Shown: one piece after another, positions 20,339 to 39,143 of the stretch | Numbering within the stretch: position 1 is the stretch's first letter | How the letters are laid out: each line of letters starts with the position of its first letter | Assembly (NCBI GenBank): GCA_018241185.1 | Contig: JAFEEH010000239.1 | Location: 1-39,143, forward strand | Direction of reading: 5' to 3' | Source of the DNA: Pseudomonadota bacterium | Lineage (GTDB): Bacteria; Pseudomonadota; Gammaproteobacteria; Burkholderiales; Burkholderiaceae_C | DNA: 39,143 bases | Notes under the pieces: generated by a model | What the model saw: only the letters and a program-made list of their open reading frames with translations | Databases searched by the model: none | Told to the model about the DNA's origin: nothing | Position numbers and translations under genes: made by a program

Positions 20339-20368
20339 GTGCCCGATACCGGCACGTTGCGAGGCCGC

Positions 20369-22070: not shown

Positions 22071-22080
22071 CAGGGCCGGC

Positions 22081-22410
22081 TTACTTGATCAGCTCGCCGA
22101 TCTTGCCCGTCTTGTCCTTCCACTCGTCGGCGTCGGGCAGCGCGGGCTTGCGCTTGGTGATGCTCTTCCAGCCGTCGGCCACGGCCAGTTCGGCATTGAG
22201 CTTGATGAAGGCCAGCTGATCAGCCGGGAGATCTTCCTCGGCGTAGATCGCATTGACCGGGCATTCGGGGATGCACACGGCGCAGTCGATGCACTCGTCC
22301 GGATCGATCACCAGCATGTTCGGCCCCTCGCGGAAGCAATCCACCGGACACACGTCGACGCAATCGGTGTATTTGCAGCGGATGCAGTTCTCGGAGACGA
22401 CGTGGGTCAT
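22081..22410 (-). CDS. 7Fe ferredoxin (FdxA)
   Basis: 109 residues. The first cluster motif (Cys9, Cys17 and the distal Cys50) fits a 3Fe-4S centre; Cys21, Cys40, Cys43 and Cys46 fit a 4Fe-4S centre. The sequence ([20 protein letters not shown] and [17 protein letters not shown]) is typical of FdxA. The C-terminal 50 residues form the helical cap of seven-iron ferredoxins. It lies 42 bp after cysN and 10 bp before the ferredoxin reductase. It is a likely electron carrier to the sulfite reductase at 26356, though FdxA also serves other pathways. Confidence 0.95.
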
Positions 22411-22452
22411 GGCGCTATGGCTGGTGAGGCGGGTCGGGGAAAACCCGGCATT

Positions 22453-24833: not shown

Positions 24834-24935
24834 CCGTACGCGAAGGGCGCGAAGGTCACGCGAAGGACGCAAAAAAATTACTTGGAGGTTCTTTCGCGTG
24901 TTTTGCGAAACCTTCGCGACCTTCGCGTATGGAGG
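24834..24935. repeat. long imperfect inverted repeat between cysH and cysD
   Basis: The left arm (about 24835-24875) holds repeated CGCGAAGG units beginning TACGCGAAGG. The right arm (about 24892-24935) is its near complement, ending CCTTCGCGTA. They flank a short AT-rich centre (24872-24890). The arms align over about 40 bases with a few mismatches and would form a large hairpin on either strand. It fills almost the whole cysH-cysD gap. It could reduce read-through or protect the cysH message end. Confidence 0.7.
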
Positions 24936-24942
24936 TCCGATT

Positions 24943-25563
24943 TCAATGGCTCAGATGCAGACCGCACTCGCGGTTGTCTTCGCCCTTGGTCGGGTCCACG
25001 TAGTCGAAGTTGTTGGGCAGGCCGTGCTTTTCGCAGTACGCGTACAGGTCCTTGGACGACCAGTGCAGCAGCGGGGCGACCTTGATCAGGCCGTCGGGGT
25101 TGATGCTGACGGGGTCCATCTGTGCGCGCACGGCGGTGTCGGCGGCGCGCAGGGCGGTGAACCAGACCTTTGGTGCGGTCTCGCGCAGGGCGCGGGCGAA
25201 GGGCTCGAGCTTCACCTCTTCGGTGAAGGCCGAATGGCGCGGGTCGTCCAGCGCGGGCGTCGGGCCGTCCACGGCTTCGCGGTGCGCGCGCGAGCGAAGC
25301 GGAAGGTAGATCTTCAGGTTCAACTTCAGCTGCTTCGTCACTTCGTCGGCGAAGCGGTAGGTGGCCTCGGTGTTGTAGCCGTTGTCCATCCAGACCACCG
25401 GCACGTCGGGCTGGACCTGCGTCACCAGGTGCAGGATCACGGCTTCGAAGGGTCGGAAGTTGGTCGTGACGATGGCCGGCTGATTCAAGCCGAGGGCCCA
25501 GTCGACCAGGCCCTCGGCGTTGCGGCCGAGGCGGTCGTTGATGTCTGCAAGATCGATGCTCAT
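24943..25563 (-). CDS. phosphoadenylyl/adenylyl-sulfate reductase family protein (CysH), atypical
   Basis: 206 residues. It aligns with PAPS reductases through VTTNFRPFEAVILHLVTQ, VPVVWMDNGYNTEATYRFAD, LKLNLKIYLPL, VWFTALRAADTAVRAQMD, KVAPLLHWSSKDLYAYCEKH and the C-terminal ECGLH with the catalytic cysteine. The paired cysteines that bind 4Fe-4S in APS reductases are absent, which argues against an APS reductase. It is about 35 residues shorter than E. coli CysH, lacking the usual YLSVGDTHTT loop. Position in the cys cluster with its own promoter module supports a role in sulfate reduction, but which substrate it uses is open. Confidence 0.85.
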   Translation of the reverse strand: MSIDLADINDRLGRNAEGLVDWALGLNQPAIVTTNFRPFEAVILHLVTQVQPDVPVVWMDNGYNTEATYRFADEVTKQLKLNLKIYLPLRSRAHREAVDGPTPALDDPRHSAFTEEVKLEPFARALRETAPKVWFTALRAADTAVRAQMDPVSINPDGLIKVAPLLHWSSKDLYAYCEKHGLPNNFDYVDPTKGEDNRECGLHLSH

Positions 25564-25620
25564 GGGTGCGATTCGTTGAAGCGGGTCGCCGTGCGCAATG
25601 CCTCAGCACCCGAGGCCCGC

Positions 25621-25738
25621 ACTTTAGGGAGCACCCTTATGAAAGCAAACGATCTTTTAGTTCGCGCTTTATGCGGATAAGCAAATGCGCCAGTGTTCAT
25701 GCGGCTTCCCGCAGGATCGGCGCGCGAATCCGGATAAG
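25621..25738 (-). promoter_or_regulatory. cysH promoter with CysB-like activator module
   Basis: On the minus strand: -35 TTGCTT (complement of 25643-25648), 16-bp spacer, -10 TAAAGT (complement of 25621-25626), about 58 bp before the cysH ATG. Upstream lies the dyad TTATGCGGATAA (25669-25680) and a second GGATAAG at 25732-25738. The GGATAAG copies are 57 bp apart, exactly as in the cysI module, and about 60 bp are near-identical between the two. A LysR-type activator such as CysB is the natural candidate. Confidence 0.7.
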
Positions 25739-25790
25739 GCGGGGAGGCAGGGGAGCCCGGATCGCGGATGGCGTCCAAGAACACGCGTGC

Positions 25791-25846
25791 GTTCACGCCG
25801 AGCTTGTCGAAGCGCCCCGCAGGACTTCGACAAGCGCAGTCCGAAC
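25791..25846. repeat. imperfect palindrome with an 11-bp core (CTTCGACAAGC type)
   Basis: GCTTGTCGAAG (25802-25812) and CTTCGACAAGC (25825-25835) form a perfect 11-bp stem with a 12-base loop. Flanking bases extend it imperfectly from GTTC at 25791 to GAAC at 25846. Elements with this core are common between genes in many proteobacteria. It sits in the 403-bp gap between DUF934 and cysH, which contains no gene. Confidence 0.7.
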
Positions 25847-25903
25847 GGCGGGTTGCTGATCGCGACCTGGTGTCAGCGGCAGATCGTCACGAACGTGACG
25901 AAT

Positions 25904-25937
25904 TCGGCCGCCAGGCCCGTCTGGCGGGCGCTGGCGG
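25904..25937. other. strong GC hairpin after the DUF934 gene
   Basis: Arms GGCCGCCAGGCCCG (25904-25917) and CGGGC-G-CTGGCGGCC (25923-25937) pair over 14 bp with one bulge. It lies 30 bp beyond the stop of the cysI-DUF934 transcript but has no T-run on that strand. The right arm plus flank (GGCGGGCGCTGGCGGCCGATT) matches dispersed repeat copy A with one mismatch, so it may be a remnant of that element. Confidence 0.5.
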
Positions 25938-25966
25938 CCGATTGCACTTTTCGTTTTCGGGGCGGT

Positions 25967-26359
25967 TCAGTCGCGTGCGAACAGCGGCTCGGGCTGCTGC
26001 GCATCGCCCTGGTAGTAGGCAGCGAAGCGGTCGAACTGGCGTTGCGCGGCGGAGGCGTCCACGCCTTCCTTGAGCACGGCGCTGGAGAAGCCCGTGCGCT
26101 GCATCTGCACCAACTGGTCGATCAGCACGTCACCCGTGGCGCGGATGTCGCCGGTGAAGCCCAGGCGCCGGCGCAGCAGGAAGGCCTGGCTGTAGGCGCG
26201 GCCGTCGGTGAATTTCGGGAACACGAGGTCGATGCGCTCGACGTCCTGCAGGCAGTTCTCGATCGCGAGCGGATCGGCGTCGTTGGCGAGCTGCAGCACC
26301 TTCGGGTCGCCGTCGTCGACGTGTTCCTCGGCGGCCAGGATCTTCAGCGTGCGGTTCAT
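25967..26359 (-). CDS. DUF934 family protein, sulfite-reductase-associated
   Basis: 130 residues. Proteins of this family almost always follow a nitrite/sulfite reductase hemoprotein gene and are thought to aid assimilatory sulfite reduction; the biochemical role is not established. Typical segments are IENCLQDVERIDLVFPKFTDGRAYSQAFLLR (in pieces), RRRLGFTGDIRATGDVLIDQ and QMQRTGFSSAVL. It overlaps cysI by 4 bp (ATGA), so it is translationally coupled. Confidence 0.9.
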   Translation of the reverse strand: MNRTLKILAAEEHVDDGDPKVLQLANDADPLAIENCLQDVERIDLVFPKFTDGRAYSQAFLLRRRLGFTGDIRATGDVLIDQLVQMQRTGFSSAVLKEGVDASAAQRQFDRFAAYYQGDAQQPEPLFARD

Positions 26360-28137
26360 GCCGACACCTCCTCGGCCTTGAAGCGCGCACCGTTGGCGGC
26401 CGCCTTGAACGGATCGTGGCCCACGCGGCGCAGCGTGTCGATGAAGGTCTCGCCGGCGTTGCGGGTGTCGCGGTAGGTGTTGAGCACCGCCTCGATCACG
26501 TCCGGCACCTCGGCCGCAGAGAACGAGGGGCCGACCACCTTGCCGGCCTGCGCCGGGCCGCTCAGGTCCGAACCATCGGAGCCCGCGAGCGTGACCTGGT
26601 ACCACTCCTTGCCGTCCTTGTCGACGCCGAGGATGCCGATGTGGCCGCTGTGGTGGTGCCCGCAGCTGTTGATGCAGCCGCTGATGTGCAGGTCGATCTC
26701 GCCCAGGTCGTCGAGTTCGTCCAGGTCCTGGTAGCGCTCGGTGATGGCTTCGGCCACGGGAATCGAGCGCGCATTGGCCAGCGCGCAGAAGTCGCCGCCG
26801 GGGCAGGCGATCATGTCGGTGAGCAGGTGCACGTTGGCGCTGGCGAAGCCGGCCGCGCGGGCGGCGAGCCACAGGGCGTGCAGGTCTTCGGCGTGCACCC
26901 AGGGCAGCAGCACGTTCTGGTCGTGCGTCACGCGCACTTCACCGGCCGAGAAGCGGTCGGCCAGCGCGGCCACCGTGTCGAGCTGGTCGGCGTTCGCATC
27001 GCCCGGCGCCTGACTCAGTCGCTTGAAGGACAGCGTGACGGCGCGCAGGGCGGGGTTCTTGTGCGGTGCCACGTTGCGCTGCAGCCAGCGCGCGAACTGC
27101 ACGTCGTCGGCGGCCTGTTCGCGCAGGGCGGCCTCGGTGGCCTCGGCGCTCTGGTACACGCGCTGCGCGAGGGCAGGCGGCACGAAGGAGGCGGCCACGC
27201 GGTCGAACTCGGCCTGCGTGATGGTGTGCGGTGCGCCGTCGTGCGCGACGATCTGCTGGTACTCGGCCTCGACGTCGTCGATGTAGCGCTGGCCCTCGGC
27301 CTTCACCAGGATCTTGATGCGGGCCTTGTAGATGTTGTCGCGGCGGCCGTAGCGGTTGTAGACGCGGATCACGGCCTCGAGGTAATTCATGATCTGCTGC
27401 CAGGGCAGGAACTCGCGCAGCACCGTGCCCACGATCGGCGTGCGGCCCATGCCGCCGCCCACCTGCACGCGGAAACCGATCTCGCCCGCGTCGTTCTTGA
27501 GCAGCTTCAGGCCGACGTCGTGCCAGCCGGTGGCAGCGCGGTCCTCGGCGGCGCCGGTGATCGCTATCTTGAACTTGCGCGGCAGGAAGGCGAACTCGGG
27601 GTGCAGCGTGCTCCACTGCCGCATGATCTCGGCGTAGGGGCGGGGGTCGACCACCTCGTCGACCGCCACGCCGGCGCGCTCGTCGCTGGTGATGTTGCGG
27701 ATGCAGTTGCCGCTGGTCTGGATGCCGTGCATGTCGACCGAGGCCAGCAGGTCCATCACGTCGGCCGACTTGGCCAGCGGGATCCAGTTGTACTGGACGT
27801 TCTGCCGCGTGGTGAAGTGCGCGTAGTGCGTGGGCAGCTTGTGCGAGCCCAGCTTGCCCTGGGTCTCGATGGCGGTCTTGTAGACCTCGGCCTCGGGCTC
27901 GTCGTACTCGCGCGCGATCTTCGCGAGCACGCGCAGCTGGCGGCTGCTGAGTTCGCCGTAGGGCACGGCCACGCGCAGCATCGGCGCGTAGCGCTGCACG
28001 TACCAGCCGTTCTGCAGGCGCAGCGGGCGGAACTCGTCTTCGGGCAGCTTGCCCGCTTGCCAGCGCTCGAGCTGGTCGCGGAATTGCGCGGCCCGAAGGC
28101 GCACGAACTGGCGGTCGAAATCTGTGTACTGGTACAT
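26356..28137 (-). CDS. assimilatory sulfite reductase hemoprotein (CysI-type)
   Basis: Six-electron reduction of sulfite to sulfide. 593 residues with two ferredoxin-like half domains and the siroheme/4Fe-4S cysteines Cys445, Cys451, Cys488 and Cys492 (ACPGGDFC and SGCINSCGHHHSGH). The TSGNCIRNIT segment near 141-150 binds siroheme. No flavoprotein subunit cysJ is nearby; the sequence fits the ferredoxin-linked nitrite/sulfite reductase class. It could in principle be a nitrite reductase, but the cys context makes sulfite far more likely. First gene of the cys cluster, with a CysB-like promoter module upstream. Confidence 0.93.
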   Translation of the reverse strand: MYQYTDFDRQFVRLRAAQFRDQLERWQAGKLPEDEFRPLRLQNGWYVQRYAPMLRVAVPYGELSSRQLRVLAKIAREYDEPEAEVYKTAIETQGKLGSHKLPTHYAHFTTRQNVQYNWIPLAKSADVMDLLASVDMHGIQTSGNCIRNITSDERAGVAVDEVVDPRPYAEIMRQWSTLHPEFAFLPRKFKIAITGAAEDRAATGWHDVGLKLLKNDAGEIGFRVQVGGGMGRTPIVGTVLREFLPWQQIMNYLEAVIRVYNRYGRRDNIYKARIKILVKAEGQRYIDDVEAEYQQIVAHDGAPHTITQAEFDRVAASFVPPALAQRVYQSAEATEAALREQAADDVQFARWLQRNVAPHKNPALRAVTLSFKRLSQAPGDANADQLDTVAALADRFSAGEVRVTHDQNVLLPWVHAEDLHALWLAARAAGFASANVHLLTDMIACPGGDFCALANARSIPVAEAITERYQDLDELDDLGEIDLHISGCINSCGHHHSGHIGILGVDKDGKEWYQVTLAGSDGSDLSGPAQAGKVVGPSFSAAEVPDVIEAVLNTYRDTRNAGETFIDTLRRVGHDPFKAAANGARFKAEEVSA

Positions 28138-28209
28138 CGTGTGGCGGTCGGAAGGCCCGTCGGGAGGTGGCGGCGCGGCCGCAGGCGCCAGCCTTCGGAG
28201 GAAGGCGGA

Positions 28210-28327
28210 ACTCTAGGGGCAGCGCTTATGAAAGCAAACGATTTTCTGGTTCGCGCCTTATGCGGATAAGCATATGCACCAGCAACCATGCGGGTTGCAG
28301 GCCCTTGGACGCCGCTTGCCGGATAAG
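28210..28327 (-). promoter_or_regulatory. cysI promoter with CysB-like activator module
   Basis: On the minus strand: -35 TTGCTT (complement of 28232-28237), 16-bp spacer, -10 TAGAGT (complement of 28210-28215), about 73 bp before the cysI ATG. The dyad TTATGCGGATAA is at 28258-28269. GGATAAG copies at 28264-28270 and 28321-28327 are 57 bp apart. The block matches the cysH module closely, including the shared CGTTTGCTTTCATAAG. Confidence 0.7.
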
Positions 28328-28353
28328 GGCGGCGGGGGCGCGAACCCGCGATT

Positions 28354-29910
28354 CTAGGAAGTGCCCGCCCGGCCTGCAGGCGTGCCCGAACCGGCCGAGA
28401 GGTCGGCCTGGATCTCCTCCAGCCGGCGCCCGCGCGTCTCCACGCCGGCGAGGCCCAGCAGCAGCGCCGCCACGGCCATGGGCACGGCGATGAGCGTGGC
28501 CGACAGCGCCAGGTGGCCGAACACGCCCAGCACCCCGAAGCCCGCGCCGATGATGCCGCCGGCCTTGGAGCTCGCGGCGATCAGGCCTGAGCCGGTGCCG
28601 CGCAGGTGCACCGGGTAGATCTCGGCGGCGTAGGGGATCAGCATCGCGATCACACCGCTGGCGCTGAGCAGCAGCAGCGCCGTGGCCGCCACCATCGCGG
28701 CCGGCGACTGCACCCGCAGCACGGCAATGACGCCGAAGACGGCCAGCGCGAAGGCGGTGAGGGCGATGAAGAGCACCAGCGCCTTCACGCTGCTCCAGCG
28801 GTGGTAGAGCCAGATCACGAGCGCGGTGCCGGGCAGCGCCAGCAGGGCCGAGCGCGCGAGCAGCGCGTTGGCCGCGCCGGTGTCCATGCCCATCGCGCCC
28901 AGGTTGGTAGGCAGCCACAGCAGGAAGCCGAAGTTCGCCAGGCCCCAGGCCAGGCCGCAGACGATCAGGCCCCAGGTGATGCGCGCATGCGGCCCGCGCA
29001 GCAGCGCGCGCACGCCGCCGGCCGGGGGCTCGGGCTCTACCACGACGGCGGCGTCGGTCGGTGAGGCGGTCGCTGCGGCGCCCGAGAAACGCGCCAGCAC
29101 CGCACGGGCCGCGTCGGGCAGCCCCGCGTTGGCCAGGAAGCGCGGCGACTCCGGGATGTAGCGCCCCAGAAAGATGATCAGCAACCCGGTGGGCAGGCCC
29201 AGCAGCCACAACGCGCGCCAGCTGAACAGGGGCACCAGCAGGTCGGCCGAGCCGGCGGCCAGCAGGTAGCCGGCCGAGGTGCCGATGCCGCCCAGCGCCA
29301 CCAGCAGCCAGCCGCGATGCGCGGCGGGCACGGTCTCGGCCATCAGCGTGAAGGCGATCGGCAGCAGCCCGCCGGCCGAGGCGCCCATGAGGAAGCACAT
29401 CGCCAGGTTCCAGCCGAAGGTCGGCATCGCGCCGCAGATGGCGGTGCCGATGAACATCAGCGCCGACAGCAGGATCGCCGAGCGGCGCCCGAACATGTCG
29501 GCCAGCCGGCCCCAGAGCACCGAGCCCACGGTGGTGCCGGTGAGCGCGACCAGCGCGAGGATGCCGGCCGTTTCCTTGCTGATGGCGTATTCGCGCGTCA
29601 TGCCCGGCATGACGAAGCCCAGCGTCGCCGGCTTGAGCACGTCCACCGCCAGCGCGACGACCAGCACCACGACAAGCTTCCAGTGCTCGGCATTGAGCGG
29701 CACGCCGTCGGCCAGGTGGAACTGCAGCGGCTGCGCAGGGTGAAGGCGCGCACGCAGCTGGGCGATGCGCGGCATCAGCCCGTAGGCCGCCAGCAGCACG
29801 CCCAGCGGGATCATGGCCATGCCCACGAGCATGGGCGCGTCCATCTCCATGCCCACCATCTCGTAGCCGGTATGGCGGCCCATGAGGAACATGGGCGCGT
29901 GCGCGAGCAC
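28354..29910 (-). CDS. MFS transporter with frameshifted N-terminus
   Basis: 518 residues from a GTG at 29910. Major-facilitator motif A is present ([13 protein letters not shown]), a second copy-like [10 protein letters not shown] follows helix 6, and about 12 core helices plus two N-terminal hydrophobic segments are visible, ending [11 protein letters not shown]. The GTG lies inside what looks like the first membrane helix. The same frame continues upstream ([15 protein letters not shown]) but meets a stop without a standard start codon. An ATG at 30020 with AGGA at good spacing is in another frame; one extra C in a run of seven (29973-29979) would join them. So this is either a broken gene, a phase-variable one or a sequencing error. 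Substrate unknown. Confidence 0.75.
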
Positions 29911-29972
29911 GCCGCCGATGATCGCGAGGCAACCGGCCCAGAAGGCCAGCGGATGGTGCAGGGAGAAGTCGT

Positions 29973-29979
29973 GGGGGGG
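29973..29979 (-). other. poly-C tract at the frameshift of the MFS gene
   Basis: Seven C residues on the coding strand. With eight, the well-initiated frame from 30020 ([16 protein letters not shown]) runs straight into the transporter frame. The tract is therefore the probable site of a deletion, slipped-strand switch or base-calling error. Confidence 0.65.
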
Positions 29980-30049
29980 AGCGCAACGCGGGAGGGGGAC
30001 GATGGCGGCGGGGCCCGCATGCTACGCGGTCCTGCCGCCGGCGCATCGG

Positions 30050-30817
30050 TCAGCGGCACATCGGCCAGCCGCCGACCTCCAGGTGGAAATGGTCGGCATG
30101 CACCGCGTTGTAGCCGGGGCCCAGTACCCCGTCGAAGCTGCGGCAGGCGCCGGCCTGCAGGTCGAACAAGAAGGCCTGCACCGGGTCGGCGGCGCCGCGC
30201 CCGTCGGACCAGGGCCGTGCGGCATCGCGCCGCAGGACCAGCGTGCGCCCGCCTTCGAGCGTGACGCCCGAGACGTCGAGCGCATCGGCGGTGGCATGGC
30301 GGCTGCGGCGCCCCGTCGCACGCCCGTCGCCACTGTTGATGTCGCGGCACGCATAGCTGCCCAGGTGCTGCACCGAGGTGGCCGGCCGCCCGAAACGGCG
30401 GCGCGCCAGCGGCTGCAGTTCGTGCCGCTCCCACAGCGCGAAGGACAGGGCGGCGCGGCAGCTCAGCAGTGTGGGTGTGCCCAGGGCCACCTCGCGGCCG
30501 GCGCGCAGGCGCACGGCGTTGTCGAGCCCGCAGCCGCGCTGCAGCGGGCGGTCGGGCACGGGGTCGAAGCGCAGGCCCGCGGCCTGCAGCGCCACCAGGC
30601 AGGCGGCCGGGTCGGCGCGCGTGCGCCGCAGCTTCAGCGGCGTGAGCCAGTTGGGCGCCTCTGCCACATCCAGCGGCGCGAAGGGATCGTGGCGCGGCGG
30701 CAGCGTGAGCAGGCCGGCTCCTCGCAAGCCCCACACCGCGGCCGCGGCCGACAGCGCCATCGCCAGCAGCCAGGGCCGGCGGCGGCGAGGGCGTGGCGAG
30801 CCGGGATCGGTGGGCAT
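30050..30817 (-). CDS. extensin-like C-terminal domain protein
   Basis: 255 residues. A basic N-terminus (RPRRRRPW) and a membrane segment ([21 protein letters not shown]) suggest anchoring in the inner membrane facing the periplasm. The extensin-like domain follows at about 60-255: [59 protein letters not shown] and [16 protein letters not shown]. The His/Asp pattern recalls D-Ala-D-Ala metallopeptidases, so a cell-wall role is possible but unproven. The ATG at 30817 lies at the edge of a diverged repeat copy. It ends 29 bp before the ATG at 30020. Confidence 0.85.
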
Positions 30818-30818
30818 G

Positions 30819-30880
30819 GATTTGAAGGAAAAGTGGCCGTAGCGCCCGTCGGGCGTGCGTGGAATGCTATCAAAAGAGAA
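30819..30880 (-). repeat. diverged dispersed repeat, copy D
   Basis: On the minus strand CTTTTGATAGC, then GGGCGCT and CACTTTTCC to AAATCC, aligning without gaps to most of copy C at roughly 65 % identity. It ends two bases before the ATG of the extensin-like gene and probably supplies its leader. The weaker match makes this copy less certain. Confidence 0.45.
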
Positions 30881-30919
30881 GCATCCGTTTCGTTGTCCCC
30901 CCGCCCGCCACAATGCCGC

Positions 30920-31438
30920 ATGGACCTCGACCTGCGCACGCTGACCCGACGCTTTGCCCAGCCGGGCCGGCTGGAGGCCATCCACCTGCGTCCCGCGCGG
31001 CGGGCGCCAGTGCAGGTGGTGCACGAAGCCACCGCCATCGCCGGCCGCGGGCTGGACGGCGACCGCAGCGCCCGGACGTCCACGCTGGGCGGCAAGCGGC
31101 AGGTCACGCTGCTGCAGGCCGAGCATCTGCCCGTGATTGCCGCGCTGGCCGCGCGTCCGCACGTGGAGGCCGCAGACCTGCGGCGCAACCTCGTGGTGTC
31201 GGGCCTGAACCTCATCGCCGCGCGTGCGCTGTTTCGCGACCAGCCGATGGTGCTGCGCATCGGCGATGCGGCGGTGCTGGAGCTCAGCGGCCCCTGCGAG
31301 CCCTGCTCGCGCATGGAGGAACTGCTGGGTCCGGGCGGCTACAACGCGCTGCGCGGCCATGGCGGCATGACCGCGCGCGTGCTCGCCGGTGGTGTGCTGC
31401 GTGTGGGCGATGCGGTGCGCTGCGAGCCGGGAGACTAG
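30920..31438 (+). CDS. MOSC-domain protein
   Basis: 172 residues. MOSC domains bind molybdenum cofactor or carry sulfur in YiiM/mARC-like proteins. Seen here are [42 protein letters not shown] and the hallmark cysteines in [16 protein letters not shown], followed by [15 protein letters not shown]. It stands alone between the divergent extensin-like gene and a convergent deacetylase gene whose stop it overlaps by 4 bp. It probably detoxifies N-hydroxylated or sulfur compounds with a YcbX/YiiM-like role; the substrate is unknown. Confidence 0.9.
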
Positions 31439-32295
31439 CGCGCGAGGCTCGAGCGAGCGAGCGCGCTGTGCGACAGCGGGCGCAGCTGCACCTGCACGTC
31501 GGCCACCTGCACCACTGGCTTCAGCAGCGCGAGCGCCGACAGTTCCCGCACCCGGGCTTCGCCCACCGCATCGCCATCGACCGCGCGCACCGAGGGGTGG
31601 CACATCAGCACATCGCCAGCGCGACCCTGTATCAACCAGGCCTGCAAGCGGCGCAGGTAGGCGCCGCGGCCGCCGTCGAAGCCGTACACGCCGAGCAGGT
31701 GGCGGCTCATGGGCAGCCCGCGGTGGCGTGCCAGCGCCTCCAGGCCGGGCCCGCCCAGCGCATGGATCAGGCGCTGCTTGGCAGGCACCTTCGGCGATGG
31801 ACCTGCAGGCCGCGTGCTGCGCAGCCACGGAAGCGCGCCGGGGTAGCGCGTCGACAGCGCCTCCACGAGTTGCTCGCGCACGCCCGGCAACTGGTGCACA
31901 TGGCGGTGGCCGTCGACGTGCGCGGGCGCACGGCCCATGGCCTGGTCGAAGCGGTCGAGCTGTGCGTCGATGGCGGCGCGCACGGCCTTCAGGTCGAGCT
32001 GGCGCGCCAGGCTGCGCAGGACCAGGCCGCGCAGCGGCGCCTCCGCGGGCGAGGCGTCCACGGCCGTGAGGTCCAGGTGCAGGCCGACGTCGGCCTGCGT
32101 CGGCGGCAGCACGCGCAGGCGCCGGGCGCCGGGCAGCCAGGCTGAACGCAGCACCATGCAGCTGGTGGCCGTGACGGCGCCGCGCTCGATCAACGCCAGC
32201 ACGGCCTGGTTGACCCCCTCCGACAGGCCGTAGTCGTCGGCGCAGATGCACAGGGTGCGGGCTTCACCGGCTCCGTCCTGGGCGAGCCAGCTCAT
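31435..32295 (-). CDS. YdjC/ChbG-HpnK family deacetylase (NaxD/LgmC-like)
   Basis: 286 residues of the metal-dependent carbohydrate deacetylase family. Metal and catalytic residues are visible: Asp20-Asp21 in CADDYGLS, His73 in GLHLDLT, and His126, His130, His132 and His134 in [12 protein letters not shown]. Family members deacetylate N-acetyl sugars; NaxD acts on undecaprenyl-phosphate-linked N-acetylgalactosamine. It overlaps the ArnT-like gene by 4 bp and is last in an operon with a polyprenyl glycosyltransferase and a lipid A-type transferase, which supports the NaxD-like role over chitooligosaccharide or hopanoid functions. Confidence 0.85.
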
Positions 32296-33890
32296 GCGGG
32301 CGCTCCTGCGAGCGAGGCGGCGCCCGGCGTGTCGGCGTGGGACAGGCAGTCTGCAGCTTCACCGGGCTGCCCGTCGTGACGCCACACGGCGATGTGGGCG
32401 TTGGACGTGACCGGTGTCATGCCCAGCACCCACGGCGCGAAGGCCTGGGCGTTCGTCGGGCCGATGACCCAGCTGCGTCCTGCGGCGCACACGGCCGCCG
32501 GCTGCGCCTCGATCGGCTGCAGGAGCCGCGTCGCAGCGTCGGCGTCGAAGCCGGCGGCGTCGGCCAGCTCCTTGCGCCAGTTGTCGCTCGCCTGCGCCAC
32601 CTCGGGCCGCCAGTCGGCCGCCACGACCACCGGCGCCGGCATGCGCCAATAGAAGGGCAGCTCGTAGAAGTACTGGTCCAGCATGACCACCCGGTCGCCC
32701 GGCGCCACGGCCTGGCCGGCCGGCAGGCGAAGGGTGGCGTCGGGCGGCGTGCCGAGGCGGGCCGCCAGCACCACGCTGCCCAGGCACGCCAGCGCGGCAG
32801 CGCCGACCGTCGCTCCGAGCAGGCGGCGGCCGGTCGGCCCGGTGGCGGCGCGTCCGGCGAAGCGCGCGATGCCGGCGGCCAGCGGCGGCAGGGCGGGCAG
32901 CACGTAGCCGATGAGCTTGGAGCGGGGCAGCGAGAAGAACAGAACGACCACCACGGCCCAGGCCAGCATGAGCAGGTCGACGTCGTCGAGCCGGCGGCGC
33001 GCCAGGCCCGGCTCGCCCGCCGGCCGCCGCCTGGCGGCCAGCAGCCACGCCGACCATGGCAGGCACAGGCCCAGCAGCACCGGCAGGTAGAACCAGAAGG
33101 GGTGCTCGTTGTTGAAGCCGCTCGCCGCGAAGCGCCGGAAGTGCTGGGTGATGACGAAGTAGTCGAAGAAGGCCGGAAAGTGCCGCTGCATGGCGACGAA
33201 CCACGGCCCGGCGATCGCGAGCAGCAACAGCCAGCCCGGCCACCACGCGGCCAGCCGCAGCACGCGCGGCCGCCGGCTGATCAGGGCCCAGAGCCCGTAC
33301 ACGCCCGCCGGCAGCACCACACCGATCAGGCCCTTGGCCAGCAGCCCCAGCGCAGCGGACGCGAAGGCCAGCGCCAGCGCACCGCGCCAGGGCCGGTTGC
33401 GCTCCCAGGCCATGGCGGCGTCCGCGGCCGCCAGCACGCAGGCGCCGATGCAGCCGGCCACCAGCATGTCGAGGTTGGCGAACTGCGCCCCCACGTAGAA
33501 GAAGGGTGCGCTGCACAGCATCGCCGTCGCCAGGCGGGCTTGCGCGCGCGAGACGTGACGGCGCAGGAACCAGAAGAGCGAGCCCGCCGCCATCCAGGCG
33601 CCCACCAGCGAAGGCAGCCGCGCCACCCATGGATGCGGACCCGCGACGGCCATGGCCGCGGCGCCGATCCAATAGAAGAGCGGCGGCTTGTGGAAGAAGG
33701 GCAGCCCGTTCAGGCGCGGCACCAGCCAGTCGCCCGACTGCAGCATCGCGTAGGCCACGCCGGCGTAGCGGCCCTCGTCGGGCGACGTCAGCGGCCGCCA
33801 GCCGATGCTCAGCGCCAACCAGAGCGCCGCGACGAGCAGGAAGGTCGCATCGCCGCGCGCGCCGCGTGGCCGCGGCGGCGCGGGGGTCAT
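32292..33890 (-). CDS. ArnT-like lipid A glycosyltransferase (GT83/GT39)
   Basis: 532-residue polytopic membrane protein of the PMT/ArnT fold. The periplasmic-loop acidic motif is SPDEGRYAGVAYAML (Asp38-Glu39), then LNGLPFFHKPPLFYW, followed by about 11 membrane helices and a periplasmic C-terminal domain. ArnT-type enzymes move a sugar from undecaprenyl phosphate to a lipid A phosphate. The arn genes for aminoarabinose synthesis are absent, and a deacetylase gene follows, so a hexosamine is more likely than aminoarabinose. ATGA overlaps join it to both neighbours. Confidence 0.88.
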   Translation of the reverse strand: MTPAPPRPRGARGDATFLLVAALWLALSIGWRPLTSPDEGRYAGVAYAMLQSGDWLVPRLNGLPFFHKPPLFYWIGAAAMAVAGPHPWVARLPSLVGAWMAAGSLFWFLRRHVSRAQARLATAMLCSAPFFYVGAQFANLDMLVAGCIGACVLAAADAAMAWERNRPWRGALALAFASAALGLLAKGLIGVVLPAGVYGLWALISRRPRVLRLAAWWPGWLLLLAIAGPWFVAMQRHFPAFFDYFVITQHFRRFAASGFNNEHPFWFYLPVLLGLCLPWSAWLLAARRRPAGEPGLARRRLDDVDLLMLAWAVVVVLFFSLPRSKLIGYVLPALPPLAAGIARFAGRAATGPTGRRLLGATVGAAALACLGSVVLAARLGTPPDATLRLPAGQAVAPGDRVVMLDQYFYELPFYWRMPAPVVVAADWRPEVAQASDNWRKELADAAGFDADAATRLLQPIEAQPAAVCAAGRSWVIGPTNAQAFAPWVLGMTPVTSNAHIAVWRHDGQPGEAADCLSHADTPGAASLAGAPA

Positions 33891-34957
33891 GGCGCCTTCT
33901 CCCCGAGGCCCTGGCCGCTCTGGTCGCGCACGACGAAGAGCGGGCGTCCCTTGACCTCTTCGAAGATGCGGCCGACGTATTCGCCCACCACGCCGAGCGA
34001 CAGCATCTGCACGCCGATGAAGAACATCAGGCTGACGACGATGGTGGTCCAGCCCGGCACCGGGTTGCCGGACACGAGGTGATCCAGCACCAGGTAGGTG
34101 CCGTAGCCCAGGGCAGGAAGCGCCAGCACCAGGCCGAGGATGCTGATCAGCCGCAACGGCCAGGTGGTGAAGGACGTCAGGCCGTCCAGCGCCAGGTGCA
34201 ACAGGCGCAGCGCCCCGAAACGGCTTCGGCCTTGCGCGCGCGGCGCGGGCGTGTAGGGCAGGGCGACGGCGCGGAAGCCGACCCAGGCATACAGGCCCTT
34301 CATGAAGCGGCTTCGCTCGGGCAGCGAGAGCAGCGCGTCGACCACCTTGCGGTCCATCAGCCGGAAGTCGCCCGCATCCTCGGGCAGGGGAACGCGGCTC
34401 GCGGCATTGACCAGACGGTAGAACAGGTGGCTGCCCCAGCGCTTGAGTGCGGACTCGTCCGCACGGTTCTCGCGCACGGCGTACACCACCTCGGCCCCCG
34501 CGCGCCAATGGGTCACCATCGACAGGATGAGAGGCGGCGCATGCTGGAGGTCGCCGTCGAGCAGCACGACGGCGTCGCCGTGCGCCGCGGCCAGACCAGC
34601 GCTCAGTGCCGCTTCCTTGCCGAAGTTGCGCGACAGACTCAGGCAACGGAAGCCCGAGAGCTGGCACCACTCGTGCGCCACCTGTGCGGTGGCGTCGGTG
34701 CTGCCGTCGTCGACCACGATCACCTCCCAGCGCAAGCCGCTCTGTTCGAGCGTGCGTTCAAGCAGCGGGAGCAGGTGGCGCAGGTTGGCTGCTTCGTTGA
34801 AGCAGGGCACCACGCAGGACAGGCCCGGCGTGTCCTGCGGGCGCGCGGGCTGGGGCACGGGATCGGCAGCGACCGCTGCCAGGCGTGGTGGGAGCGTCGG
34901 CAGGTCGGCCGCGGCAGACGGCCGTTGACGAAGCACCGCGCCTTGCGCAGCGCTCAT
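33887..34957 (-). CDS. polyprenyl-phosphate glycosyltransferase, GT2 (ArnC/GtrB/LgmA-like)
   Basis: 356 residues. The GT-A domain has VVPCFNEAANLRHLLPLLER, VDDGSTD (Asp83-Asp84) and LLDGDLQHAPP with the DxD-type Asp134-Gly-Asp136. Two C-terminal membrane helices (about 255-325) and the ending GEYVGRIFEEVKGRPLFVV are typical of enzymes that load a sugar onto undecaprenyl phosphate at the cytoplasmic face. A 40-residue Ala/Pro-rich N-terminal tail is unusual. It overlaps PAP2 upstream and the ArnT-like gene downstream by 4 bp each. Confidence 0.92.
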   Translation of the reverse strand: MSAAQGAVLRQRPSAAADLPTLPPRLAAVAADPVPQPARPQDTPGLSCVVPCFNEAANLRHLLPLLERTLEQSGLRWEVIVVDDGSTDATAQVAHEWCQLSGFRCLSLSRNFGKEAALSAGLAAAHGDAVVLLDGDLQHAPPLILSMVTHWRAGAEVVYAVRENRADESALKRWGSHLFYRLVNAASRVPLPEDAGDFRLMDRKVVDALLSLPERSRFMKGLYAWVGFRAVALPYTPAPRAQGRSRFGALRLLHLALDGLTSFTTWPLRLISILGLVLALPALGYGTYLVLDHLVSGNPVPGWTTIVVSLMFFIGVQMLSLGVVGEYVGRIFEEVKGRPLFVVRDQSGQGLGEKAP

Positions 34958-35535
34958 GGCAGGCGCTCCTGCGTCGCTCCTGCGCCTTGCTGGATGCGTG
35001 CAAAGGCGGGCGCCAAGCGCCGTGTCGCGAGCCCCTGCAGCACCATGAACAGGCCTTGAATGGCCAGTGCAAGCACCAGCCCTGCGGCGATGTCCGAGGG
35101 GAAATGCACGCCCACATAGACCCGTGCCCAGCCAGTGGCGAGTGCGAGCAGCGCCGCTGCCGGCGCCCATCGGCGCAGGGTCGGCCGGGCCGCGAAGGCC
35201 AGCGCGATGAAGCACATCACGGTGGCATGGGTGCTGGGCATGGCGGGACTGGGGCCGTGCGCGATGTGGGCGGGGGCCAGGCCCAGCACGAAGGGCCGTG
35301 GCAGGCCGATGCGGTCCGCGAGCGCATGCGCCAGGAAGGACGCGACGCCGGCCATCGCCAGCGCCGCCAACAGATAGCCGCGGTCGCGGGGCTGGCGCCA
35401 GGCGGCCCAGCCCATCAGGGCGGCGCACAGCCAGGCGCCGCCCTCGGCAATGGCGGACGCGACGGGGAGCAGCCAGGCAGCGGGAGAGGGGCCGGCGGTC
35501 ATCAGCAGGAACAGGTGGGTGTCGGGATGTGTCAT
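34954..35535 (-). CDS. PAP2-family membrane phosphatase
   Basis: 193 residues with about six hydrophobic helices. The acid-phosphatase signature is complete enough: Arg80-Pro81 (GLPRPFVLG), PSTH at 100-103 and Arg138 with His144 and Asp148 (RVYVGVHFPSD). PAP2 enzymes remove phosphates from undecaprenyl diphosphate or from lipid A (LpxE/LpxF). In this operon it could recycle the lipid carrier or prepare lipid A; the sequence alone does not decide. Its ATG overlaps the stop of a 21-codon open frame upstream. Confidence 0.88.
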   Translation of the reverse strand: MTHPDTHLFLLMTAGPSPAAWLLPVASAIAEGGAWLCAALMGWAAWRQPRDRGYLLAALAMAGVASFLAHALADRIGLPRPFVLGLAPAHIAHGPSPAMPSTHATVMCFIALAFAARPTLRRWAPAAALLALATGWARVYVGVHFPSDIAAGLVLALAIQGLFMVLQGLATRRLAPAFARIQQGAGATQERLP

Positions 35536-35597
35536 GCGCCGCCTCGTGGACGGCGCTCGCGCCGCGCCTGAAGGCGGGATCGGAAAAGAGGATTCAT
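35532..35597 (-). CDS. possible 21-residue Arg-rich leader peptide before PAP2
   Basis: An ATG at 35597 follows GGAG with 6-base spacing. The frame encodes MNPLFRSRLQARRERRPRGG plus Ala (seven Arg in 21 residues) and stops in ATGA shared with the PAP2 start. This 4-bp overlap is the same coupling seen at every other junction of the operon. A 9-bp perfect stem (35623-35631 with 35637-35645) lies just upstream. It could be a coupling or attenuating leader; chance remains possible. Confidence 0.4.
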   Translation of the reverse strand: MNPLFRSRLQARRERRPRGGA

Positions 35598-35671
35598 GGC
35601 GGGCTCCGGCAGGAACGATCGACCGTCGCAGCCAGGCTGCGACGGGGCCTGCGGCGCAAGGCGCCGCGCGT

Positions 35672-36127
35672 TCAGCGGAAGACCAGCGGAGGCGCGAGGG
35701 CCGGTGGGTGCGCTCGCCAGGGCGCGGAAGGCGGCGGTGCGCCGCCACGGGTGCAGGGGCGTGGTGGCGGTGGCGCCGCAGACCGACGCACGCAGAGGAC
35801 CGCCTGCACCACCACCAGCGGCAAGGCCAGGGCCAGCAGCGCGACGAAAGCACCGAGGGCATCGCCGAGGGCATGCGGTGACTGCATGCCTGCACCGAGC
35901 GGGACGAACAGCGTGGTTTCATGCTCGCGCGCATGGTCGACCCGCTCGTCCTGCTCGAACTGCGTCGTCTGGCTCATGGGCCGGATGCGAAAGCCCGGCT
36001 CGTCCTCCCAGCCATCGGCACGGAAATGCACCGCGATGAAAGGCTGCAGCGCCGACAGCAGCAGCGCGCCGATCCACCAGGCCAGGCACTGGGTGGACAG
36101 CAGGCGACGCAGGCGCACGGTGGACAT
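35672..36127 (-). CDS. membrane protein of unknown function
   Basis: 151 residues. Hydrophobic segments at about 13-33 (QCLAWWIGALLLSALQPFI) and 88-110 (LGAFVALLALALPLVVVQAVL) flank a polar, charged middle that is probably periplasmic (HFRADGWEDEPG, QTTQFEQDERVDHAREHE). The C-terminal 35 residues are Pro/Ala-rich. Strong G/C third positions support coding. No family recognised. It lies 74 bp upstream of the leader frame and may head the PAP2-glycosyltransferase operon. Confidence 0.6.
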   Translation of the reverse strand: MSTVRLRRLLSTQCLAWWIGALLLSALQPFIAVHFRADGWEDEPGFRIRPMSQTTQFEQDERVDHAREHETTLFVPLGAGMQSPHALGDALGAFVALLALALPLVVVQAVLCVRRSAAPPPPRPCTRGGAPPPSAPWRAHPPALAPPLVFR

Positions 36128-36189
36128 GGCGCAATGCTAGGCGCGACGCGTGAACATCGACTGACTGCGGCGTTCAGGGTTGGGCAAGG

Positions 36190-37422
36190 TCACGCAGGTC
36201 GGCTCGCGATCAGGACGGCGTTGGTGCCGCCGAAGGCAAAGGAGTTGGACATCACATGCCGCAGCGGCGGCACCGCACGCGGCGACGGCCCGTGCACCAG
36301 GTCGATGCCGAGTGCATCGCCCGGCGCGCGCGCGCAGGCCGGCAGCCGCGCGGTCTGCATCGCATGCAATGCGCAGATCAGCTCCACCGCGCCGCCCGCA
36401 CCCATCAGGTGGCCATGCAATGCCTTGGTCGCGCTGACCGGCACGCCGCGTGCGCCGAAAACCTCGGCCAGCGAACCCGCTTCGGCCACGTCGCCCGCCA
36501 GCGTGCCGGTGCCGTGCGCGTTGACGTGACCGATGTCCGCCGGCACCAGGCCAGCATCGGCCAGCGCCGCCTTCATGGTGCGCACCTGGCCCGCGCTGTC
36601 CGGTGTGCTGATGTGCGCGGCGTCGCAACTCGTGCCATAGCCCGAGAGCAGCGCCAGCACCGGGGCGCCGCGCCGGCGCGCGGAATCCACCGACTCGACG
36701 ACCAAAGCTGCCGCGCCCTCACCGAGCGCGAAGCCTGCCCGGTCGTCGGCGAATGGACGACATACGGTACGAGGGTCGGCGTTCACGGGCGCCAGCACCT
36801 TCATCGCCTGCCAGCTCGCGATCACGCCCGGCGACAGCAGGGCTTCGTGGCCGCCGACGACGGCCATGTCGACCCAGCCCGCACGGATGGCACGCATCGC
36901 CTCGCCGATCGCCACGGCCGACGAGGCGCAGGCGCAGGCATAGCCCATCGATGCGGCTCGCGCCCCGAAGGCCATCGACAGCTCGGCCGCTGCCGCGTTG
37001 GGCATCGTGGTCAGCACGGTGGTGGGCCGCAGGCGGCGGTGTCGCGCGTAGAGCTGCTCGGTGCTCTGGTCGAAGCTGGATGCGCCGCCCATGCCGGCGC
37101 CCCAGTACACGCCCAGGCGCTCAGGCTCCACCGGACGCGCATCGCCCATGAGCCCGGCCTGCGCAGCGGCCTCGCGTGCAGCCGTCAGCGCCAGCGCGGT
37201 GCCGCGGTCGAGCGCCACGCCCGAGGGGCCGCGCACCTGCCGCTCCTCGAAGCCGGCGCAGGCGGCAGCGCCGAAGGTGAAGCGTTCCACGCCCTCGATC
37301 ACCACCTCGCGCGCCGCGACGGCGCACAGGTTGTCGGACAGCGTGTCGTGCACGGCACGGACGGTGGCCCCGAGCGGTGTCACGGCGCCCAGGCCGGTGA
37401 TGGCCAGCGGTGCGCTGTTCAT
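36190..37422 (-). CDS. beta-ketoacyl-ACP synthase (FabF-like, stand-alone)
   Basis: 410 residues of the KAS I/II fold. The catalytic triad is Cys165 (CACASSA), His303 (NAHGTGT) and His338 (KALHGHLMGAGG), and the C-terminal SNSFAFGGTNAVLI is intact, so condensing activity is likely. It begins 10 bp after an ACP gene, away from fab genes, and differs from housekeeping FabF in the lid (GTLAGDVAEA). It probably belongs to a specialised acyl product rather than primary fatty-acid synthesis. The long frame upstream of 37422 is ignored because it runs over the ACP gene. Confidence 0.9.
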   Translation of the reverse strand: MNSAPLAITGLGAVTPLGATVRAVHDTLSDNLCAVAAREVVIEGVERFTFGAAACAGFEERQVRGPSGVALDRGTALALTAAREAAAQAGLMGDARPVEPERLGVYWGAGMGGASSFDQSTEQLYARHRRLRPTTVLTTMPNAAAAELSMAFGARAASMGYACACASSAVAIGEAMRAIRAGWVDMAVVGGHEALLSPGVIASWQAMKVLAPVNADPRTVCRPFADDRAGFALGEGAAALVVESVDSARRRGAPVLALLSGYGTSCDAAHISTPDSAGQVRTMKAALADAGLVPADIGHVNAHGTGTLAGDVAEAGSLAEVFGARGVPVSATKALHGHLMGAGGAVELICALHAMQTARLPACARAPGDALGIDLVHGPSPRAVPPLRHVMSNSFAFGGTNAVLIASRPA

Positions 37423-37432
37423 CGCTCGACGC

Positions 37433-37723
37433 TCAGGCATGCGCGGGCGCAGCGCTCGCGGCGCCTCCGGCCTGCTCCTCGGCCAGACGCGCATCGATCG
37501 CGTCGCACAGGTCGCCCAGCGTGATGCCCGCTTCGCGCGGGTCCAGCCTGTCCTCGGGCAGGCGCAGGTGGAACGCGTCCTCGACCGAGAAGATGAATTC
37601 CATCAACGCCAGCGAGTCCAGGCCCAGGTCGGCCAGGGGCACGTCGCGGCGGATCAGGGACGGGTCGCAGGCGTGTTCTTCCTGCACGATGCGGGAGACG
37701 GTGGCGAAGGTGGGTGTGGACAT
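37433..37723 (-). CDS. acyl carrier protein
   Basis: 96 residues. The phosphopantetheine site is Ser37 in ADLGLDSLALMEF. The four-helix core covers about 5-83 (FATVSRIVQEEHACDPSLI, LCDAIDARLAEE), with an Ala/Gly-rich tail. It lies 4 bp after the hydrolase gene and 10 bp before the ketosynthase, so the three form one operon and the ACP most likely serves this ketosynthase. Confidence 0.92.
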   Translation of the reverse strand: MSTPTFATVSRIVQEEHACDPSLIRRDVPLADLGLDSLALMEFIFSVEDAFHLRLPEDRLDPREAGITLGDLCDAIDARLAEEQAGGAASAAPAHA

Positions 37724-37727
37724 GGCC

Positions 37728-38570
37728 TCAGCTTTCGACAGGGGAAGGAGGACGGTGGCCTTCGGCCACCGCGCGGGCGAAGTCGATCGTTTCCTGCGCC
37801 ACCTGACGGCGGTCGTTGTCGATCGAGATCATGTGGTAGCTGTTCTCCAGCACCACGGTATGCAGTGAAGCCTGCGTCAGGCCGCGGGCCAGCAGGTCGA
37901 CGTTCGACAGGCTGGCGACCTCGTCGTGGCGCGCGTGCAGGGCCAGCACCGGGCACCGGATCTGCGAGAGGCTTTGCCGCACGGCGCGGCGCAGGCGGTC
38001 GTATTCACGCAGGTGGCCCACGCCGATGGCGGCACAGCCGGCGCGCGAGATGCGGCGCTGCTGGAGTTCCTGCTCGATCCAGGCGCGCACGCGCTCGTTC
38101 TTCACGCCGTAGGGCGTGCGCTCGCGGTAGCGCCACAGGCGCCCGAGCGGTGTGTAGAGGGCCAGCGGCAGGAGCCATCCCCCGCGCCGGGCCGACCAGC
38201 CGTCCATGCGCAGCGTGGTTGACATGAGCACCAGGCCGTCGGCGCTGAGGCCCAGGCGGGCCACCGCAGCCAGCGCCAGCGAGGCGCCGGCCGAGATGCC
38301 CGCGAGCAACACGGTGCCGTATTGCCGGCGCAAGGCCTGGAACTCGTCGCAGACCCGCTCGACCCAGTCGGAGAAGCGGCCGGCGACCTGGCGCTGGCGC
38401 GAGGCATCGAAGGAATAGCCTTCGATGTGCGGTGTGCTGAAGGCCCAGCCCGCCCGGCGCAGGGCCGATTGCAGGTGCAGCAGTTCGTCGGCCGTGCTGC
38501 ACAGGCCCGGCAGCAGCAGGACCGCGCCCGAGAGGGCAGGACGAGGGCCGGAAAGGGACGATTCGATCAT
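37728..38570 (-). CDS. alpha/beta hydrolase (carboxylesterase/thioesterase-like)
   Basis: 280 residues with a complete triad: nucleophile Ser93 in the elbow GISAG, Asp in LHARHDEVAS and His in NSYHMISID. The oxyanion-hole region is LLLPGLCSTADELLHL. It resembles monoacylglycerol lipase/carboxylesterase proteins (Est30 type). Being first in an operon with ACP and ketosynthase, it could release the acyl product as a thioesterase. A cap region at about 120-175 is rich in Arg and Trp. The ATG at 38570 is the only good start. Confidence 0.88.
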   Translation of the reverse strand: MIESSLSGPRPALSGAVLLLPGLCSTADELLHLQSALRRAGWAFSTPHIEGYSFDASRQRQVAGRFSDWVERVCDEFQALRRQYGTVLLAGISAGASLALAAVARLGLSADGLVLMSTTLRMDGWSARRGGWLLPLALYTPLGRLWRYRERTPYGVKNERVRAWIEQELQQRRISRAGCAAIGVGHLREYDRLRRAVRQSLSQIRCPVLALHARHDEVASLSNVDLLARGLTQASLHTVVLENSYHMISIDNDRRQVAQETIDFARAVAEGHRPPSPVES

Positions 38571-38634
38571 TGGATGTCAGGAAATGCCGCGCCGTCGGGA
38601 TGAGCGGATGGAGCCCGGACCTTACCCATGCGGA

Positions 38635-38674
38635 CCTGAAGAAACTCCCAAGAAATCCTGAAGAGTTCTTCAGG
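38635..38674. promoter_or_regulatory. candidate operator upstream of the response regulator
   Basis: CCTGAAGA occurs at 38635 and again at 38657, 22 bp apart in direct orientation. The second copy is half of a perfect 7-bp inverted repeat (38657-38663 with 38668-38674, CCTGAAG/CTTCAGG). Direct repeats two helical turns apart are typical of OmpR-type regulator sites, so autoregulation by the adjacent gene is plausible. Confidence 0.4.
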
Positions 38675-38736
38675 CCGGCACAGCCATCGAACGGGCATAC
38701 TTTCCGCCCCGTCCTCCCGCTTCGTGGCCTCTTTCC

Positions 38737-39143
38737 ATGCGCATCCTTCTCATCGACGACGACCGCAAGGCGGCACGCGTGCTGGCGCGCGGGCTGCAGG
38801 AGGAGGGCTTCGTGGTCGACGTGGCGCACTCGGCGGAAGAGGGCGACGAGGAAGCCTTCGTCAACGACTACGGCGTGATCCTGCTCGACCGCATGCTTCC
38901 CGGCATGGACGGCCTGAGCTGGTGCAAGGCGCTGCGTGCACGCGGCTGCGCCACGCCGGTGCTGATGCTCACCGCCCGCGACGCGCTCAGCGATCGCGTC
39001 GAGGGACTGAACACCGGCGCGGACGACTACCTCACCAAGCCTTTCGCCTTCGACGAACTGATCGCCCGCGTGCGGGCGCTGCTGCGGCGCTCCGACCTGT
39101 CGCGCCCCACGGTGATGACCGTCGGCACGCTGGCGCTCGATCC
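38737..39143 (+). CDS. OmpR-family response regulator, truncated by window edge
   Basis: The first 135 residues are present: a full receiver domain with Asp7-Asp8-Asp9, phosphoacceptor Asp51 (VILLDRMLPGMDG), LMLTARDALSDRVEGLNTGADDYLTKPF in pieces, and the start of the linker to a winged-helix domain (VGTLALD). The style is that of CopR/IrlR/QseB regulators. The DNA-binding domain and any partner kinase lie beyond 39143. It is divergent from the hydrolase-ACP-ketosynthase operon. Confidence 0.92.
   Translation, partial: MRILLIDDDRKAARVLARGLQEEGFVVDVAHSAEEGDEEAFVNDYGVILLDRMLPGMDGLSWCKALRARGCATPVLMLTARDALSDRVEGLNTGADDYLTKPFAFDELIARVRALLRRSDLSRPTVMTVGTLALD

Follow-up and report, generated by a model that had tools for sequence, protein, structure and literature searches.

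The window analysed here is a contig of 39,143 nucleotides (JAFEEH010000239.1; C154) from a genome of 5.34 Mb (GCA_018241185.1). Its minus strand carries a quartet of genes (31435..35535) encoding a PAP2 phosphatase, a GT2 glycosyltransferase, an ArnT-like GT-C glycosyltransferase and a YdjC-family deacetylase (Table 1). The host is probably an environmental bacterium of the genus Xenophilus. By identity of the YdjC protein across eight loci, the nearest named relatives are Xenophilus E41 (86%) and Pseudacidovorax intermedius NS331 (56%). All three junctions of the quartet are 4-bp ATGA overlaps of stop and start, as a first-pass annotation made from the sequence had described, and GGAG stands 7-8 bases before each downstream start. 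The quartet consists of four separate overlapping genes and is not a gene fusion; from the overlaps, we infer co-transcription and translational coupling. At its 3' end it meets a plus-strand open frame tail to tail, the stop of that frame lying at 31438.

Table 1. Features of the quartet and of the region upstream of it, in window coordinates
Feature	Position	Strand	Matches and remarks
PAP2 phosphatase, P0001, 193 aa	34954..35535	-	Pfam PAP2 3.1e-16
GT2, polyprenyl-phosphate glycosyltransferase type, P0002, 356 aa	33887..34957	-	Pfam Glycos_transf_2 2.1e-33; LgmA/FlmF2-like position
ArnT-like GT-C glycosyltransferase, P0003, 532 aa	32292..33890	-	Pfam PMT_2/PMT 1e-12/1.8e-11; LgmB/FlmK-like position
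YdjC-family deacetylase, P0004, 286 aa, NaxD clade	31435..32295	-	Pfam YdjC 8.3e-46; LgmC/NaxD-like position
Stop/start overlap ATGA, PAP2-GT2	34954..34957	-	
Stop/start overlap ATGA, GT2-ArnT	33887..33890	-	
Stop/start overlap ATGA, ArnT-YdjC	32292..32295	-	
151-aa protein, no Pfam hit	35672..36127	-	Conserved between ketoacyl synthase and PAP2 in L109, L134, L135
Ketoacyl synthase	36190-37422	-	Upstream of quartet
Acyl carrier protein	37433-37723	-	Upstream of quartet
Alpha/beta hydrolase	37728-38570	-	Upstream of quartet
Divergent OmpR-type response regulator	38737..39141	+	Start only (window end)

The arrangement is conserved within the GTDB genus of the window (Xenophilus and Pseudacidovorax), where the YdjC gene was found in 12 of 15 genomes. 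Two of these genomes (G071 and G459) are assemblies of one strain, E41, and were counted once, giving 11 distinct quartets including that of the window. The order PAP2-GT2-ArnT-YdjC is kept in all 11, and every junction is a 4-bp overlap of the form ATGA or GTGA (33/33; three in the window and 30 in the ten other quartets). The ten differ in how independent they are, since the GT2 rows of L112, L129 and L130 are identical. A different GTDB genus of this family supplies a twelfth quartet (L114 in genome G220), where two of the three junctions overlap in this way. In all 12 distinct quartets PAP2 comes first and overlaps the GT2 gene by 4 bp. Since order and overlaps are conserved at 30 of 30 junctions elsewhere in the genus, the arrangement is not due to chance, and its sharing across distinct quartets marks it out as a single functional unit.

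Seven residues of the deacetylase that we take to form the YdjC metal site (D20, D21, H73, D128, H130, H132 and H134) are conserved without exception in an alignment of 11 rows that includes the Acinetobacter baumannii NaxD-like protein and Escherichia coli ChbG; the metal residues are thus intact, as first described. Phylogenetic analysis used a 37-row tree, made of 34 rows out of an earlier 71-row tree and three HpnK rows. In it, the window deacetylase and the A. baumannii protein share a clade of 28 rows (support 100/100), to which neither ChbG of E. coli nor any of the HpnK rows belongs. Forcing five Xenophilus/Pseudacidovorax quartet rows together with HpnK was rejected (approximately unbiased test, p-AU 8.5e-31). 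The HpnK model reaches 52.7 bits in the window's genome, under its cut-off of 232.6. A kinship of the deacetylase with HpnK or ChbG, named in the first-pass annotation as an outcome that would refute its reading, was rejected on the tree.

The GT2 protein is, judged by sequence, of the polyprenyl-phosphate glycosyltransferase type, and its closest relatives in a search of solved structures are sll0501 (E 4.8e-85) and ArnC (E 7.2e-48). The ArnT-like protein has a single solved relative at E values up to 1, ArnT (5ezm, presumably from Cupriavidus metallidurans; E 2.2e-40), and scores 178.8 bits on the NCBIfam ArnT equivalog model, whose cut-off of 567 is not reached. Its Pfam matches carry the name PMT, which presumably fits ArnT as well. 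An identity as a protein mannosyltransferase, the other such outcome, was rejected by sequence search, with none among the solved relatives at E up to 1. Also as first reported, no gene for aminoarabinose (L-Ara4N) synthesis was seen in the mapped part of the window (20006-39141). Searching the whole genome with ArnA of E. coli gave no full-length match and three partial ones (the best with 96.7 bits over residues 10-270; another with 18.8 bits over residues 302-499), ArnB and ArnD not having been searched for genome-wide. Without a full-length ArnA-type enzyme in the genome, we rejected an L-Ara4N pathway.

Among known systems, the lgm cluster of Bordetella pertussis (lgmA-D) has four genes, as the window quartet does; LgmA is presumably a GT2 enzyme and LgmC a YdjC deacetylase, and the two loci are set side by side by their descriptions, not their sequences. 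In Bordetella, the presence of glucosamine (GlcN) on the phosphates of lipid A requires lgmA, lgmB and lgmC (PMC4993483, PMC11895810; here and below, papers are cited from excerpts of their texts). LgmB is a sugar transferase (PMC10743493), the B. pertussis genes lgmABC are BP0397-0399 (PMC6181320) within a cluster given as BP0396-0399 (PMC9858536), and lgmD is reported to be non-essential (PMC4993483). The FlmF2-NaxD-FlmK set of Francisella is likewise likened to the window by descriptions. The glycosyltransferase genes flmF2 and flmK are tied to galactosamine (GalN) on lipid A (PMC4688374) and NaxD is a deacetylase (PMC9431647); the locus numbers of lpxE and lpxF are far from those of flmF2 and flmK (PMC4688374).

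The naxD-type locus of A. baumannii (L089; CP040041, 4992-8799) has the row YdjC-GT2-GtrA-GT39, and its deacetylase lies in the window's clade. It differs from the window in having GtrA, in lacking PAP2 and in beginning with YdjC, and the two deacetylases are 29% identical. Family and synteny suggest that this locus is the published naxD. According to the excerpts of PMC9431647, it had not yet been established which enzymes transport and attach GalN; the GT2, GtrA and GT39 neighbours at L089 are obvious candidates for these steps in A. baumannii. The E. coli arnBCADTEF operon resembles the quartet in its ArnC- and ArnT-related enzymes and in an amino sugar linked to undecaprenyl phosphate (Und-P), whereas the window has no full-length ArnA, no ArnEF in the operon and YdjC instead of ArnD. 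On C. metallidurans pMOL30, an ArnT-like (GT39) gene, GtrA and GT2 stand side by side, with no YdjC in 18.9 kb and set among copper/silver genes.

The kinship of the quartet to Nax/Lgm systems follows from a deacetylase of the NaxD clade, from a GT-C enzyme whose sole solved relative is ArnT, from a GT2 of polyprenyl-phosphate type and from the A. baumannii row in which the same three families stand with GtrA. The first-pass annotation had proposed an operon for amino-sugar lipid A. This is borne out in part: the tree, the ArnT match and the GT2 match support the kinship, and the sugar and the acceptor stay predictions. The same three-component logic could instead serve another target, such as the lipopolysaccharide core, O-antigen, phosphatidylglycerol or a glycan. 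Systems of GT2 plus GT-C do decorate other glycans (PMC11127046), and GlcN-phosphatidylglycerol exists in Pseudomonas (PMC12713373). However, the GpgSDF glucosaminyl-phosphatidylglycerol system works with a GT4 glycosyltransferase and a deacetylase of COG3233 (PMC12713373), families that differ from the GT2 and YdjC of the window, and both the ArnT relationship and the NaxD-like clade argue against another target. We consider such a target unlikely, if worth keeping in view.

The PAP2 protein carries the motifs RPF, PSTH and ARVYVGVHFPSD. Compared with E. coli PAP2 proteins, it matches YbjG with 65.5 bits, PgpB with 32.3 and LpxT with 24.3. Its best NCBIfam model is PRK11837, undecaprenyl-diphosphate phosphatase, at 61.6 bits against a cut-off of 229, and the protein is therefore filed as YbjG-like and not as a member of YbjG. 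Undecaprenyl-diphosphate phosphatase is the best model for all four quartet or ArnT-linked PAP2 proteins examined, each time under the cut-off. In the alignment, the lysine of KX6RP, which we take to be the PAP2 motif, is found in PgpB and neither in the window protein nor in YbjG. By sequence, undecaprenyl-diphosphate phosphatases of the YbjG/BcrC kind are the closest PAP2 proteins; the window protein differs from them in being borne by an operon, in an amino-sugar pathway. An AlphaFold2 model of it (predicted local distance difference test score, pLDDT, 91.6) matched 5jki, LpxE (6ebu; E 9.2e-4, TM-score 0.76 by target length) and PgpB in Foldseek, so that the fold does not single out undecaprenyl diphosphate (Und-PP) as the substrate. 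From the closer match to YbjG, Und-PP is nonetheless the substrate that we predict.

The reading that we favour, with somewhat better than even confidence, is that the quartet is an envelope modification operon of the Lgm/Nax type in which the PAP2 protein is a YbjG/BcrC-type Und-PP phosphatase supplying Und-P to the GT2. In this scheme, the GT2, working at the cytoplasmic face, would use a UDP-sugar to attach an N-acetylhexosamine to Und-P, the YdjC enzyme of the NaxD clade would take off the acetyl group, and a flippase encoded outside the operon would turn the Und-P-hexosamine outward. The ArnT-like enzyme would then place the amino sugar on a lipid A phosphate, freeing Und-P. The PAP2 enzyme, with a periplasmic active site, would make Und-P from Und-PP and so provide more carrier when modification is switched on. 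The sugar, the acceptor, the order of steps, the PAP2 substrate and the regulation are as we infer them. The first-pass annotation had cast the PAP2 enzyme as a carrier recycler. As L-Ara4N transfer frees Und-P and not Und-PP (PMC12826051), PAP2 would enlarge the Und-P pool and would not recycle the product of the pathway; what survives of that proposal is that it may supply Und-P from Und-PP.

Within the same amino-sugar lipid A system, the PAP2 enzyme could alternatively act on lipid A itself, as a 1- or 4'-phosphatase resembling LpxE/LpxF or as a phosphotransferase of the LpxT kind that would shape the acceptor. The Foldseek match to LpxE, no worse than the other fold matches, is in keeping with this, as are a weak phmmer match of LpxE to the window protein (E 0.0068) and the pairing of lipid A phosphatases with galactosamine addition in Francisella (PMC4688374). 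However, YbjG scores well above LpxT, the three models that the window protein matches in NCBIfam include none for LpxE or LpxT, and removal of a phosphate would take away the attachment site. It is unlikely that PAP2 works in this manner.

To describe the partners of these enzymes, we call a trio locus any place with YdjC, GT2 and ArnT within 6 kb, GtrA being counted up to 2.5 kb away and PAP2 where no more than 500 bases separate it from GT2 or ArnT. In the family, 150 genomes were searched for ArnT, 66 of them gave a match, and 40 of 95 places were fetched (some strong ArnT places in G074, G039, G043 and G109 were left out of the 40); 23 of these 40 regions hold the trio. For PAP2, 399 genomes were searched (59 matched; 19 of 72 places fetched, plus one GtrA place), and the genus search took in 15 genomes, with seven more stretches. 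A class search of 321 genomes gave a match in 30, including the window's. Twenty of the other 29 were fetched, and five of these stretches (L137, L139, L145, L148 and L149) have the trio under the score limits used, so the set is sporadic across the class. The eight loci behind the YdjC identities were included as well, along with others such as V. paradoxus L088 and A. baumannii L089.

The first-pass annotation had called the joining of four activities in one unit unusual. This did not hold up, given how common the trio is in the family, as the ArnT regions show, and the four genes of both the B. pertussis lgm cluster and the A. baumannii locus. The unusual part of the operon is its PAP2 partner, not the union of GT2, ArnT and YdjC. 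In the openly licensed literature, we recognised no paper describing PAP2 in such an operon or amino sugars on the lipid A of Variovorax or Acidovorax, nor, in that on NaxD, FlmF2/FlmK and GtrA in lipid A work, one describing such an operon. If Bordetella LgmD were a PAP2 protein, the PAP2-bearing variant would already be known.

The 49 trio loci were reduced to 45 by dropping the duplicates L032, L135 and L034 and by leaving out L068, a GtrA locus whose GT2 gene is cut by the contig end. Twenty-nine have GtrA without an adjacent PAP2, 12 have an adjacent PAP2 without GtrA, four have neither (L053, L088, L139 and L148) and none has both; a looser 6-kb rule finds both at two loci (L057 and L125). 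PAP2 loci were sought deliberately, so these counts are not natural frequencies. GtrA is thus absent from all 12 PAP2 quartets and present in 29 of the 33 other trio loci, among them those of the named relatives Eoetvoesiella (L036) and Paralcaligenes (L037). This partner, usual in related clusters though perhaps not a defining part of them, and absent here, had been missed in the first-pass annotation. At L036, L037, L038, L039, L045, L048, L054 and L125, GtrA lies between ArnT and YdjC on the opposite strand, which is odd for a pathway gene. Within the genus, a single GtrA gene is present in 13 of 14 genomes and two are present in G465; three of the 14 (G378, G457 and G465) lack the operon. 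The sole GtrA gene of the window's genome, on contig C195, adjoins a GT2 gene and a gene for a large membrane protein (L127), and its product could serve the operon.

These counts also bear on how PAP2 joined the trio. On a GT2 tree with four long branches, the outgroup among them, two changes are needed to account for the 12 PAP2 loci, and a single clade is rejected (p-AU 9.8e-5). An independent-pairs test of PAP2/GtrA exchange found two pairs only, with which significance is unreachable. Because the Variovorax paradoxus locus L088, sister of the Xenophilus/Pseudacidovorax group, has neither gene, GtrA may have been lost before PAP2 was gained, rather than swapped for it directly. PAP2 and GtrA could even be alternative fourth parts, with PAP2 gained at least twice in GtrA-less lineages and making the pathway work without GtrA. 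For instance, Und-P made by PAP2 in the periplasmic leaflet beside the transferase could drive the exchange of Und-P-sugar across the membrane, or PAP2 could pair with a general flippase; we regard this reading as decidedly improbable.

PAP2 and ArnT genes are also neighbours at L046 and L117. The former (499-5164; G040) has the order PAP2-ArnT-DedA-response regulator, with a CopK-like gene upstream, and its PAP2 is 27% identical to that of the window. Proteins of the DedA family have been described as flippases for Und-P (PMC12826051), and the DedA gene next to ArnT would fit an Und-P supply module. Two further rows were noted. At L111:6792-10168, in G313, which also has a quartet, there is a second row of GT2, GT-C and PAP2. 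L124:4009-7261 has PAP2, DedA, a response regulator and a sensor kinase in a row, with no ArnT match in the 8-kb stretch examined.

It could also be that the PAP2 gene is a passenger, an ordinary gene of its family that joined the operon by chance and has no role in the pathway. There are only two independent PAP2 gains among the 45 trio loci, the sister Variovorax locus manages without PAP2, the genome has several PAP2 genes, and at 12 of the 19 fetched PAP2 places nothing in the neighbourhood matches GT2, ArnT or YdjC. A passenger is hard to reconcile with the constant first place and 4-bp overlap of PAP2 in the 12 quartets, kept while PAP2 identity within the genus goes down to 49%, or with the independent quartet at L114 and the PAP2-ArnT neighbours at L046 and L117. 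We hold it to be very improbable.

Several points weigh against the favoured reading of an Lgm/Nax-type operon with a PAP2 enzyme that supplies Und-P. The best NCBIfam matches of all four quartet proteins are under curated cut-offs. The nearest folds of the PAP2 protein are a phosphatidylglycerophosphate phosphatase (5jki) and LpxE (6ebu), and the window's genome has seven PAP2 matches above the Pfam cut-off, so that a dedicated PAP2 is not obviously needed. The operon itself lacks a flippase gene, and the sister locus in V. paradoxus has neither GtrA nor PAP2. In plain identity, the deacetylase is 29% identical to the A. baumannii protein versus 26% to ChbG, so it is the tree alone that separates NaxD from ChbG, and the 28-row NaxD group was named after the earlier 71-row tree. 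In the ArnT tree, the position of the long-branched A. baumannii GT39 is uncertain. Finally, the sequences are compatible with GlcN, GalN or another sugar and do not reveal the acceptor.

Upstream of the quartet, the window's row of hydrolase, acyl carrier protein, ketoacyl synthase and 151-aa protein recurs, with a divergent two-component system, in three other Xenophilus-type loci (E41, G436 and G461); in G313 the contig ends at PAP2. Neither the 151-aa protein nor its L109 relative has a Pfam family. The Pseudacidovorax-type loci have none of this row and no such two-component system within the available flanks. A complete regulator and kinase are present at L032:1462-3545, and their best models are those of CztRS/SilRS/CopRS (229.8 bits against a cut-off of 279.2, and 242.6 against 292.55). 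A scan of 34800-39143 found no promoter-like site and one terminator-like site, with one expected by chance. The authors of PMC7019866 suggest a role of ArnT in heavy metal stress, and on pMOL30 ArnT-like genes are also near copper/silver genes. By analogy, a metal link for the window operon is no more than a lead.

The quartet is thus a conserved Nax/Lgm-type operon whose fourth partner is uncommon, and it widens the known range of such systems in Burkholderiales. It touches two open questions, namely the route by which sugars linked to Und-P pass through the inner membrane and the way in which the supply of carrier is matched to modification. A compact operon that has a phosphatase gene where a flippase gene is usual offers a natural test case in an environmental bacterium.

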